A stretch of DNA of 33,225 nt from an uncultured Alphaproteobacteria bacterium (lineage in GTDB: Bacteria > Pseudomonadota > Alphaproteobacteria > HIMB59 > GCA-002718135), in contig CACPNW010000012.1 of the NCBI GenBank assembly GCA_902635455.1, forward strand, positions 1 to 33,225, in the 5' to 3' direction. A program made the translations under genes and the position numbers. Positions 19,604 through 22,138 of this stretch are shown piece after piece (within the stretch, counting starts at the first letter, position 1; every line of letters starts with the position of its first letter). The notes under the pieces are model-generated. The model was not told where the DNA came from, searched no databases, and was given only the letters and a program-made list of their open reading frames with translations.

Positions 19604-20547
19604 TGCAAAAAAAATACGATGCTACAATAGTAGGATTATATATTCTTGATGTTTTGGGAAGACCAGTTTCAAAAATTCCTGACGGCGGTAATGTTGAATT
19701 TATTGAAGAATTAAGATTAACTGTAGCAGGTACAGCAGGAGGAACTGTTGTAGATTGTGCAAAATTAGGACTTAAAACTTTAGCAGTTGGGGCTGTAGGA
19801 GATGATGAAAAAGCTGACTTCGTTATTGCAACTTTAGATAAATTTGGTGTCGATACCTCAGGGTTTGAAAGAATTAACAATGTTCCAACATCAGCAACAA
19901 TTCTTAATGTTAGACCAAATGGAGATCGCCCAGCTTTACATTTAAGAGGAGCAAGTGATCACTTTTTACCTCCTTCAAAAGAAAAAATTGATATTTTTGA
20001 TTGTAAGGTTTTTCATCTTGGAGGAACTGGTCTTTTAAAGAAGTTGGATGGCCAAGCTTCAATTGATCTTTTAAAAGAAGCAAAAGAAAGAGGGTGTATT
20101 ACTACTTGGGATCTTATCGCAGCAACTGAAGATACATTAACTATTGTAGAGCCTCTTCTTCCTTACATTGATTATTTTATGCCGAGCATTGAGGAGGCAA
20201 GTGTAATGTCAGGTAAAAAAGATCCGGAGGAAGCTGCTAAATTTTATATAGATAAGGGTGTAAAAAATTGTGTTTTAACAATGGGTGAAAAAGGATCTTT
20301 ATATATGAATAAAGATAATAAAATTATAACACCAGCCTATGATATAAAAGTAGTTGATACTACTGGTTGTGGAGATGCTTTTGATGCTGGTATGATTACT
20401 GCATTAGCAAAAGATATTGATTTGGAGGCTTCCTTGAAATTTGCAACAGCAACTTCAGGATTAGTTGCAACGGGACTTGGTTCTGATGCGGGCATAATAA
20501 GTTATGAAGATACAATACAAAAAATGGAAAATTTTAAAATTAAGTAA
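19603..20547 (+). CDS. PfkB-family carbohydrate kinase
   Basis: This 314-residue ribokinase/PfkB-type kinase has the Gly-rich N-terminal substrate region (TVAGTAGGTVVDCAKLG, about 38-54) and the C-terminal signature DTTGCGDAFDAG, whose Asp is the catalytic base; the more common form is GAGD. It phosphorylates a sugar or sugar acid with ATP, probably the product of the preceding dehydrogenases and epimerase. Its ATG overlaps the stop of the epimerase by one base. Close relatives with the same ILDVLGRPV beginning are common in rhizobial sugar clusters in my memory. It ends the island; the following 300 bases are regulatory for amt. Confidence 0.9.
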   Translation: MQKKYDATIVGLYILDVLGRPVSKIPDGGNVEFIEELRLTVAGTAGGTVVDCAKLGLKTLAVGAVGDDEKADFVIATLDKFGVDTSGFERINNVPTSATILNVRPNGDRPALHLRGASDHFLPPSKEKIDIFDCKVFHLGGTGLLKKLDGQASIDLLKEAKERGCITTWDLIAATEDTLTIVEPLLPYIDYFMPSIEEASVMSGKKDPEEAAKFYIDKGVKNCVLTMGEKGSLYMNKDNKIITPAYDIKVVDTTGCGDAFDAGMITALAKDIDLEASLKFATATSGLVATGLGSDAGIISYEDTIQKMENFKIK

Positions 20548-20650
20548 CTGTATTTTAAGCATATTAAAAACTATTAACTATGCAAATTATGCATATTTAA
20601 TTTGAGTGAATTCTATTATAAATTTCAAATGTATAGTATAAATTAAAATG
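20548..20650 (+). promoter_or_regulatory. Promoter-bearing spacer upstream of the glutamine riboswitches
   Basis: Together with the RNA elements that follow, this forms the only gap over 300 bases in the window. It is very A+T-rich and has -10-like hexamers TATAGT (20632-20637) and TATAAA (20637-20642) just before the first aptamer, without a convincing -35. ATGCA-AATTA-TGCAT (20580-20594) is a small dyad. No sigma-54 GG/GC promoter was seen. Confidence 0.35.
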
Positions 20651-20651
20651 A

Positions 20652-20705
20652 CGTTCATTTTAGTAGCAATACTAAAACGGAAGTAGACGAAAGTCGAAGG
20701 AACGC
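20652..20705 (+). ncRNA. Glutamine riboswitch (glnA RNA), first aptamer of a tandem pair
   Basis: The sequence folds into the known three-helix glutamine-I (glnA) aptamer. P1 pairs CGTTC (20652-20656) with GAACG (20700-20704); P2 is TTTTAGTA/TACTAAAA closed by a GCAA tetraloop (20658-20677); the conserved junction CGGAAGTA follows (20678-20685); P3 is GAC-GAAA-GTC (20686-20695); and the conserved GAAGGAACGC ends it (20696-20705). These junction words are the consensus of the class. Glutamine binding lowers expression of nitrogen genes in the family, which fits an ammonium transporter downstream. Confidence 0.93.
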
Positions 20706-20722
20706 ATGCAAAGTTATAAAAT

Positions 20723-20772
20723 CGTTCAATCTGTTAAAACAGATCGGAAGTAAGGTAAAACTGAAGGAACGC
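20723..20772 (+). ncRNA. Glutamine riboswitch (glnA RNA), second aptamer of a tandem pair
   Basis: This second copy begins 17 bases after the first. P1 pairs CGTTC (20723-20727) with GAACG (20767-20771); P2 pairs ATCTG with CAGAT (20729-20744); CGGAAGTA (20745-20752) and GAAGGAACGC (20763-20772) are identical to those of the first copy. The helix sequences differ but the pairing is kept, showing covariation rather than a recent duplication. P3 (20753-20762) is weak, with only two standard pairs. Confidence 0.92.
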
Positions 20773-20809
20773 GGATATTATTGTTAATTTCCATAGCTAA
20801 GCATGATTT

Positions 20810-20835
20810 AAACAAGTCTCAGGTGAGTCTTGTTT
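20810..20835 (+). promoter_or_regulatory. Hairpin between riboswitch and amt, candidate expression platform
   Basis: AAACAAG (20810-20816) pairs with CTTGTTT (20829-20835) and, after a T-T mismatch, CTC with GAG around an AGGT loop. The hairpin ends 12 bases before the GGAGA ribosome-binding site (20848-20852). TCTC in its 5' arm (20817-20820) could instead pair with GAGA of that site, so an on/off switch of translation is possible. It lacks a proper U-tract, so simple termination is less likely. The mechanism is inference. Confidence 0.5.
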
Positions 20836-20857
20836 TAAACTTATTATGGAGAATTAT

Positions 20858-22138
20858 ATGAATAAATTTTCTTATTTAGGTTTAATTTTAGGATTTACTT
20901 TTGTATCTTCAAGTGCATTTGCAGCTGTTGATCCTGAAGTATCCTATATCTTAAACACACTTTTATTTTTAATAGGTGGCTTTTTAGTCATGTGGATGGC
21001 AGCTGGTTTTGCTATGTTAGAGTCTGGACTAGTTACATCTAAAAGTGTCGCGACAATAGCGGCAAAAAATATTGGATTATATTCTATAGCTGGTTTAATG
21101 TTTTGGTTTGTTGGATATAACTTAGCATATGGTATTCCAGAAGGAGGATTCATAGGAACATTTCTTCCTTGGAGTGATGCGAGTTCAATTGAAACTGGAT
21201 ATTCTGATGGATCTGATTGGTTTTTTCAAATGGTATTTTGTGCAACAACATGCTCAATAGTATCTGGTACGATGGCAGAAAGAATTAAAATTTGGCCATT
21301 CTTTTTATTTTGTGCAGTACTAGCAGGAATAATTTATCCAATCGAAATGGGATGGCAGTGGGGTGGAGGACATCTTGCAGCTGCTGGTTTTTCAGACTTT
21401 GCTGGATCAACACTTGTACATAGCGCTGGTGGTGCAGCTGCACTTGCAGGAGCTATTTTACTTGGTCCAAGACTTGGTCGATTTAATGATACTAATGGAG
21501 CTAAGCCTATGGCACCATTTGCTAGTTCATCAATACCTCTTGCAACTTTAGGTGTATTTATTTTATGGTTAGGATGGTTTGGTTTTAATGGAGGATCACA
21601 ATTAGCTTTAGGTTCTTTTGAAGACTCAACTTCTGTTGCTACTATTTTTATTAATACTAATCTAGCTGCTTGTGCCGGTGTTATGGTTTGTGCAGCTGTT
21701 TCAAGATTAGTTGGTGGTAAAACTGATGTAATAATGATGCTAAACGGAGCATTAGGAGGGCTTGTAGCTATTACTGCAGAGCCACTTACACCTTCACCTA
21801 TTATGGCAATTATAATTGGCGGTATTGGAGGGTTAGTTGTTTACTATGGCACATTATTACTTATCAAACTCAAAATAGATGATGTGGTTGGAGCTATTCC
21901 AGTTCACGGCTTTGCTGGTATTTGGGGTACGTTGGCAGTGCCACTTACTAATTCTGGTACTAATTTTGGTTCTCAGCTTTATGGAATCTTATGGATCAAT
22001 ATTTTTGTATTCATTATAGCCTTTATTATTTGGTATTTAATGAAAATAAGTATTGGAATTAGAATTAGTGAGGAGGCTGAAAAGCTTGGAACTGATAAAG
22101 CAGAAGTTGGTGTTATGGCTTATTCTATTAGAGATTAA
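20858..22138 (+). CDS. amt: Ammonium transporter
   Basis: This inner-membrane Amt-family channel has a signal peptide (MNKFSYLGLILGFTFVSSSAFA) and eleven expected hydrophobic segments. The twin pore histidines are in TLVHSAGG and PVHGFAGIWG, and the family signature region CATTCSIVSGTMAER is present. It takes up ammonium for glutamine synthesis. The frame opens with an ATG at 20846, but GGAGA at 20848-20852 sits 6 bases before the second ATG at 20858, which also gives a clean signal peptide, so 20858 (426 residues) is chosen. It is controlled by two upstream glutamine riboswitches and ends at a strong terminator. No glnK PII gene adjoins it, although many amt genes have one. Confidence 0.95.
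   Translation: MNKFSYLGLILGFTFVSSSAFAAVDPEVSYILNTLLFLIGGFLVMWMAAGFAMLESGLVTSKSVATIAAKNIGLYSIAGLMFWFVGYNLAYGIPEGGFIGTFLPWSDASSIETGYSDGSDWFFQMVFCATTCSIVSGTMAERIKIWPFFLFCAVLAGIIYPIEMGWQWGGGHLAAAGFSDFAGSTLVHSAGGAAALAGAILLGPRLGRFNDTNGAKPMAPFASSSIPLATLGVFILWLGWFGFNGGSQLALGSFEDSTSVATIFINTNLAACAGVMVCAAVSRLVGGKTDVIMMLNGALGGLVAITAEPLTPSPIMAIIIGGIGGLVVYYGTLLLIKLKIDDVVGAIPVHGFAGIWGTLAVPLTNSGTNFGSQLYGILWINIFVFIIAFIIWYLMKISIGIRISEEAEKLGTDKAEVGVMAYSIRD

Follow-up and report, generated by a model that had tools for sequence, protein, structure and literature searches.

An ammonium transporter gene behind two glutamine aptamers

The window, by which we mean the whole 33,225-nucleotide stretch of DNA analyzed here, carries an ammonium transporter gene, amt, whose leader contains two glutamine aptamers in close succession. 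The encoded protein matches the ammonium transporter domain PF00909 (332.8 bits) and, with 555.3 bits, exceeds the cut-off of 514 set for TIGR03644, "probable ammonium transporter, marine subtype". The ATG at 20858 is a more likely start for this gene than the ATG at 20846, because the Shine-Dalgarno sequence GGAG occupies 20848 to 20851. Among the listed frames of the window, none beside amt looks like glnK by eye, as the initial annotation had said. The features of the region are as follows.

20580 to 20594, no strand assigned: dyad ATGCA-N5-TGCAT, a probable operator, upstream of the leader and the only one in the window
20650 to 20708, plus strand: glutamine aptamer 1 (RF01739), 59.8 bits, with P1 at 20652-20656 and 20700-20704
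20705 to 20722, plus strand: inter-aptamer linker, with the 5' strand of the predicted helix P0 (CAUGC at 20705-20709, AGUUAU at 20712-20717)
20721 to 20775, plus strand: glutamine aptamer 2 (RF01739), 59.3 bits, with P1 at 20723-20727 and 20767-20771 and one non-standard pair in P3
20773 to 20792, plus strand: small hairpin P4 (GGA...UCC), with a predicted alternative in which its 3' strand, UUUCC, pairs with the Shine-Dalgarno sequence
20788 to 20806, plus strand: conserved downstream element D, UUUCCAUAGCUAAGCAUGA, with the 3' strand of P0 (AUAGCU at 20793-20798, GCAUG at 20801-20805)
20810 to 20835, plus strand: hairpin between D and the Shine-Dalgarno sequence, without a terminator-like T run
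20848 to 20851, plus strand: Shine-Dalgarno sequence GGAG of amt
20858 to 22138, plus strand: amt, ammonium transporter, marine subtype; the first in-frame ATG is at 20846

Both aptamers were recovered in an Rfam covariance search of the window, with E values of 5.7e-11 and 7.7e-11 and scores that compare with a gathering score of 35 bits for RF01739, a single-aptamer model of 53 positions. With amt as the next gene, the original reading of glnA-type aptamers in tandem before an ammonium transporter gene holds. The covariance check proposed with it comes out for one of its two models: RF01739 matches twice above its gathering score, whereas RF01704, the Downstream-peptide (type 2) family, has no match in the window, and no other Rfam family reaches its threshold there.

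Both copies contain CGGAAGTA and GAAGGAACGC, and both have the junction words CGGAAGUA and GAAG-GAACG. The letters of P2 differ between the copies while its pairing is kept, in agreement with the differing but compensating helices first described. P1, P2, and P3 all form in copy 1, while in copy 2 one pair of P3 (AGG/ACU) is non-standard; because of this pair, "two complete aptamers" was slightly generous for the second copy, although the identical junction words are there. The close spacing was also seen correctly, but at a slightly different count: 17 bases were given, and we find 18 between the P1 helices (20705 to 20722) or 12 between the Rfam boundaries. Compared with dinucleotide shuffles, the leader has the more stable fold (z = -2.67), which 2 of 200 shuffles equal. 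In this organism the two aptamers presumably bind glutamine.

The assembly from which the window comes (1.14 Mb, 68% complete) has the tandem pair only before amt. A third RF01739 copy stands singly before another, different ammonium transporter gene (L002), and a GS-I glnA is not present in this incomplete assembly.

Distribution and downstream genes

How widespread is the riboswitch among relatives? Among the matches listed, RF01739 occurs in 36 of the 37 genus genomes, in 2 to 8 copies each; the exception, G015 (82% complete), is also missing matches to PII, amt, and GS-I glnA, which may be due to gaps in its assembly or to a true loss. No match is listed in any of the 24 genomes of the sister family, which belongs to the same order, under scoring whose filters lose some weak matches in genus and sister family alike. 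An even draw over the class found the family in 6 of 385 alphaproteobacterial genomes, namely, this one, a second member of the genus (G220, 96% complete, with 8 copies), and four members of family f10, each of which carries a single copy. These comparisons support the probable alphaproteobacterial host. In a pattern scan of named genomes, again among the matches listed, tandem copies were found in a SAR116 cluster record (L042), in a record of Alphaproteobacteria TMED109 (L080), in SAR86, and in further marine records, while single copies were found in many cyanobacteria. Phage glutamine riboswitches are on record, according to an extract of PMC9004378; a phage origin of this arrangement was rejected, since the viral contigs with the linker pattern number zero.

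Which genes lie behind the pairs? G220 has four: before glnA, before each of two adjacent amt genes, and before an operon for a circularly permuted ATP-grasp protein, an Alpha-E protein, and a transglutaminase-like protein. Its glnA locus reads aminotransferase, glnB, aptamer pair, glnA. Altogether 97 sites were typed, spread over the window and a further 95 stretches picked from the RF01739 matches listed; because the stretches were picked by riboswitch match, the resulting counts give aptamers per site, not frequency per gene. Among these listed matches, the aptamers are in tandem at 30 of 30 glnA sites, at 38 of 38 amtA sites (one of them, L244, was assigned, its gene being absent from a short contig), and at 20 of 21 ATP-grasp sites of the genus (L208 is truncated at a contig end), but at none of four f10 ATP-grasp sites and none of four amtB sites. 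The ATP-grasp counts refer to loci found through riboswitch matches.

Counting by gene is possible for the others. The survey of amt leaders in relatives that had been suggested finds the pair on 35 of the 38 amtA genes in the genus, and the other three reach a contig end (G018:C21, one of G002:C15, and one of G025:C25). The pair precedes 29 of 30 GS-I glnA genes, the exception being in G021, where the contig extends 111 nt upstream. Seven amtB genes were found, four with one aptamer and three (L267, L268, and L270) with none by Rfam. The tandem pair is therefore fixed in the genus on amtA and glnA, and nearly all typed ATP-grasp leaders of the genus have it as well. A further, different transporter gene in G033 (L185, 1563-3683) has no Rfam riboswitch match; its ammonium transporter domain lies in a 706-aa frame that seems fused to another part.

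The operon with the CP-ATP-grasp, Alpha-E, and transglutaminase genes stands behind the riboswitch in the genus (for example, L177, 5460-8874), in tandem form, and in f10 (L180 to L183), in single form. That glutamine riboswitches precede these genes is a hint that the operon belongs to nitrogen metabolism. In L177, as in other ATP-grasp leaders, a frame some 20 codons long opens at an AUG with which D could pair and, by eye, its end overlaps the start of the ATP-grasp gene (TGATG); the frame and the gene are possibly coupled in translation.

Predicted pairing of the linker with a downstream element

The linker between the P1 helices is 16 to 18 nt long in the 81 distinct leaders, and no expression platform is recognizable in it by eye. 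What it does have is a predicted partner. Element D, which follows aptamer 2 in the genus's tandem leaders, reads UUUCCAUAGCUAAGCAUGA at amt and many ATP-grasp sites and AUUUCAUAACUAGAGCAUGA at most glnA sites, and the linker, CAUGC-AA-AGUUAU, is complementary to its 3' part. In all ten representatives the linker:D duplex, P0, has a value between -10.4 and -11.6 kcal/mol; it is equaled by 0 to 10 of 500 dinucleotide shuffles of D and by 0 to 26 of 500 of the linker, whereas the amtA linker reaches only -2.6 to -3.9 kcal/mol against three single-aptamer leaders. Of 39 tandem sites among the matches listed from the pattern scan, 28 pass a P0 test in which 5 or fewer of 200 mononucleotide shuffles do as well. 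All 28 have CAUGC or CGUGC linkers, and they include L042 (SAR116) and L080 (TMED109), the rest being mostly relatives of the genus. The other 11, with other linkers, fail, 8 to 193 of 200 shuffles doing as well.

In places the letters of P0 change and the pairing is kept: U-A stands for U-G in glnA leaders and G-U for A-U in L091, the glnA leader of L194 retains the pairing with an altered linker, and L080 has a different, longer pairing. Duplex-versus-shuffle tests were used instead of column-wise covariation on alignment A1 because MAFFT set the glnA linkers one column off, and since few letters vary, conservation leaves no room for a strong claim of covariation here. In the predicted folds of the window's leader, P0 appears in both the minimum-energy and the centroid structures, and P4 and the hairpin before the Shine-Dalgarno sequence appear in the minimum-energy one. 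Hairpins with other sequences take the position of the latter in 8 folded leaders, the one in SAR116 being weak. The GCAUGA of D also opens a very short frame in the window (20803-20811, AUG AUU UAA); its counterparts in other leaders run from 2 to about 6 codons by eye and may be due to chance in AT-rich DNA.

A 2022 review of tandem riboswitches, as far as an extract of it goes, files 157 doublets and 4 triplets of glutamine riboswitches as independent switches in series, each with its own platform and together pseudo-cooperative (PMC9481103). Read this way, the amt leader would need a platform behind aptamer 1, where there is only the short linker, complementary to the region past aptamer 2; nor is there a terminator-like site anywhere in 20500-20900. 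We consider the series reading improbable here. Because no platform is recognizable within the linker, which instead could pair with a downstream element, one platform shared by the two aptamers is likelier than separate ones, judging from the sequence. The earlier thought that two aptamers sharpen the response to glutamine is possible, and the linker argues for their doing so, if they do, through that shared platform. P0 (the linker plus D) would hold the two aptamers together, and both would feed the one platform, which would control ribosome access to amt. On balance we favor, at somewhat better than even confidence, a tandem type 1 glutamine riboswitch bridged by P0, with a single platform governing ribosome access to amt, by which RNA would have taken over the sensing of glutamine.

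Expression platform and direction of switching

As no terminator-like site was found in 20500-20900, an intrinsic terminator was dropped as the candidate platform, and translation is the likelier level of control. In which direction would the switch work? Ensemble models were run with and without the aptamers enforced. In the amtB single-aptamer leaders, enforcing the aptamer lowers Shine-Dalgarno access in 4 of 4 (from 0.75, 0.77, 0.53, and 0.24 to 0.07, 0.36, 0.34, and 0.16), and in the three of four f10 single-aptamer leaders modeled, it does so in 2 (from 0.49, 0.17, and 0.18 to 0.00, 0.22, and 0.00). The models thus point to the single-aptamer leaders being OFF switches.

The tandem model took in 81 leaders of four classes out of the 97 sites, with duplicates merged, amtB and the cut L208 leader excluded, and 7 sites without a start-codon match kept outside it. 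When both aptamers are enforced, Shine-Dalgarno access goes from 0.26 to 0.29 in amtA2, from 0.42 to 0.49 in amtA1, from 0.65 to 0.57 in glnA, and from 0.37 to 0.43 in ATP-grasp leaders, for which the "Shine-Dalgarno" segment of the model is the start of the short leader frame. Because access hardly changes, an OFF mechanism is not predicted for the tandem leaders, and ensemble modeling was abandoned as a means of deciding between ON and OFF. What does change is the number of linker:D pairs, which moves from 7.0 to 8.5 in amtA2, from 3.7 to 6.4 in ATP-grasp, from 1.1 to 5.4 in glnA, and from 10.7 to 10.8 in amtA1 leaders. As the pairing rises, P0 is compatible with both aptamers being bound.

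UUUCCAUAG and UUAUGGAGA could form an antiSD helix, valued at -9.0 in the window, which would share bases with P4 and with a part of P0. It leads to the idea that the tandem leaders are ON switches, in which glutamine would stabilize P0 and P4 and these would hold the antiSD strand, UUUCCAU, leaving the Shine-Dalgarno sequence free. Enforced aptamers do bring more linker:D and less antiSD:SD pairing in the models of all four classes, with low starting levels in three, and the cyanobacterial members that have been assayed are activating, according to an extract of PMC6316151. But more amt and glnA under ample glutamine would contradict nitrogen economy, the amtB single-aptamer leaders are predicted to be OFF, and Shine-Dalgarno access stays nearly constant in the tandem models; we give ON switching little chance. 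AntiSD pairing was also discarded as a class-specific signal, a swap table showing little specificity. In one leader of a second amt gene (L251), ACGGAG stands in place of the AUGGAG that would pair with the antiSD strand.

OFF switching is preferred because of physiology and the single-aptamer leaders, and glutamine is expected to turn the tandem leaders off. With plentiful glutamine, both aptamers would be bound and translation of amt would go down; with scarce glutamine, it would go up.

A probable operator upstream

The dyad ATGCA-N5-TGCAT recurs 66 to 70 nt before aptamer 1 in 17 of 19 amtA1, 17 of 23 ATP-grasp, and 2 of 2 window-type leaders, and at that spacing in 3 of 16 amtA2, 0 of 29 glnA, and 0 of 4 amtB leaders; 4 of the 97 sites were left out of this count for having too little upstream DNA. 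The 23 ATP-grasp leaders include four f10 sites, from which the dyad is absent. It is probably a transcription factor site, or operator. No sigma-70-like site is listed on the plus strand in 20500-20900. Could transcription through the dyad be the main control, with the riboswitch as fine tuning? The counts for amtA1, ATP-grasp, and window-type leaders, and the few amtA2 cases, speak for it, yet glnA and amtB leaders carry aptamers without any dyad, and to us this division of labor seems doubtful. In the reading that we prefer, RNA would sense glutamine for these genes, probably alongside a transcription factor at the dyad.

What the RNA may stand in for

The GlnD domain, PF08335, has no match in any of the 37 genus genomes, nor in G220, which is 96% complete. 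In the sister family, 24 of 24 genomes have it in frames of about 850 to 870 aa, read as GlnD, and in 21 of the 24 another match, a weak one, falls in a frame mostly of 770 to 780 aa (shorter in three assemblies), which we take to be GlnE. Completeness in this comparison is 55 to 89% per genome, so chance absence from all the genus genomes is very unlikely. The loss of GlnD is a single event in a single lineage. The riboswitch was rejected as a predictor of GlnD loss across the class: GlnD is retained in three of the four f10 genomes, which have the riboswitch as a single copy, and PF08335 is found in 274 of 385 class genomes and without a match in 111.

PII has not been lost altogether, a possibility that was also considered. 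It is present in 29 of 37 genus genomes, as one gene each (none in the window's incomplete assembly), compared with two genes in 18, one in 5, and none in 1 of the 24 sister-family genomes. Its T-loop has changed. In the two sister-family proteins examined, the loop reads YRGAEY, presumably the usual setting of Tyr51, which we take to be the uridylylated residue. In 29 of 29 genus proteins the loop is like IDPNDGYDDEF, with one residue inserted and YRGAE gone; loss of Tyr51 itself was dismissed, as the alignment shows the tyrosine kept in all 29. In glutamine synthetase, the tyrosine of what we assume to be the adenylylation site is kept in 30 of 30, and the DLP that follows it in one sister-family protein is changed in the genus sequences shown.

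The initial annotation had spoken of a direct RNA substitute for PII/NtrBC control. Full replacement of this kind would agree with the lack of a PII gene beside amt in the window, as judged by eye, and with the search for NtrC, which has no match above the cut-off in any of the 61 genomes, those of the sister family among them; that test is weak, as the cut-off was reached by just 1 of 14 control genomes. However, PII persists in the numbers given, and full-length NtrX-like matches, all below cut-off, occur in 26 of 37 genus genomes; a 442-aa sigma-54 activator in the window's assembly has its best fit with the NtrX model, at 414 bits (cut-off 600), and reaches 222 bits with that of NtrC (cut-off 559). 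The sister family, moreover, is likewise without NtrC above the cut-off and yet has no riboswitch. Full replacement is thus very unlikely and the earlier wording too broad. The GlnD domain went undetected while PII, its T-loop altered, is still there; what the RNA seems to replace is the arm that senses glutamine (GlnD) and not PII.

Across the genus, the same device precedes glnA, as many as two amtA genes, and the ATP-grasp operon, and RNA would then have become the glutamine sensor for all of them. The strongest form of this idea, that a dual-aptamer riboswitch locked by P0 onto one platform replaced GlnD as their sensor, is one we hold tentatively, at a little under an even chance; a causal tie between riboswitch and GlnD loss would be part of it.

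Relation to known systems

Tandem aptamers and their link to amt are already published, while the proposed bridged architecture, the genus-wide gene set, the lack of detectable GlnD, and the upstream dyad go beyond that. The leader has the sequence, structure, and downstream nitrogen genes of RF01739 (type 1, or glnA RNA). It differs from that family as described in being part of a genus-wide, alphaproteobacterial tandem set and in having P0, which lies outside the Rfam model. The glycine riboswitch, in an extract of PMC9481103, likewise has two like aptamers, a short linker, and apparently one platform; its ligand class is another, and the present case is known from sequence and predicted folding.

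An extract of PMC2864571 describes glnA RNAs in tandem and links them to PII, GS, GOGAT, and ammonium transporters. A 2018 review, also in extract, restricts glutamine riboswitches to cyanobacteria, with the links to glutamine synthetase, PII, and ammonium transporters apparently confined to environmental sequences from uncultured strains (PMC6316151). In an extract of PMC10308909, the terms ammonium, amt, glutamine, and ntr have 0 occurrences. Titles and the starts of abstracts yielded no description of the arrangement in alphaproteobacteria; Ames and Breaker 2011, Klahn 2018, Ren 2015, and Smith 2013 lay outside this search. The associations with glutamine synthetase and ammonium transporters can now be assigned to one defined alphaproteobacterial genus, in which the genes concerned can be counted. 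This genus, with the riboswitch, and the sister family, with GlnD and no riboswitch, form a natural comparison of RNA and protein sensing of glutamine, and P0 is a concrete, mutable handle on the question of one cooperative device or two independent switches.

Other marine tandem records (L047, L063, L076, L081, L086, L099, L112, L114, L128, L141, and L159) have two or three RF01739-type aptamers with other linkers, other target genes, and no clear P0, L076 being borderline (8 of 200 shuffles). In L128 and L141, two or three aptamers without P0 precede what by eye is a putative glutamine synthetase gene. In L086 (Pseudomonadota) and L114 (SAR86), two or three aptamers, likewise without P0, precede a putative porin gene, again as judged by eye.
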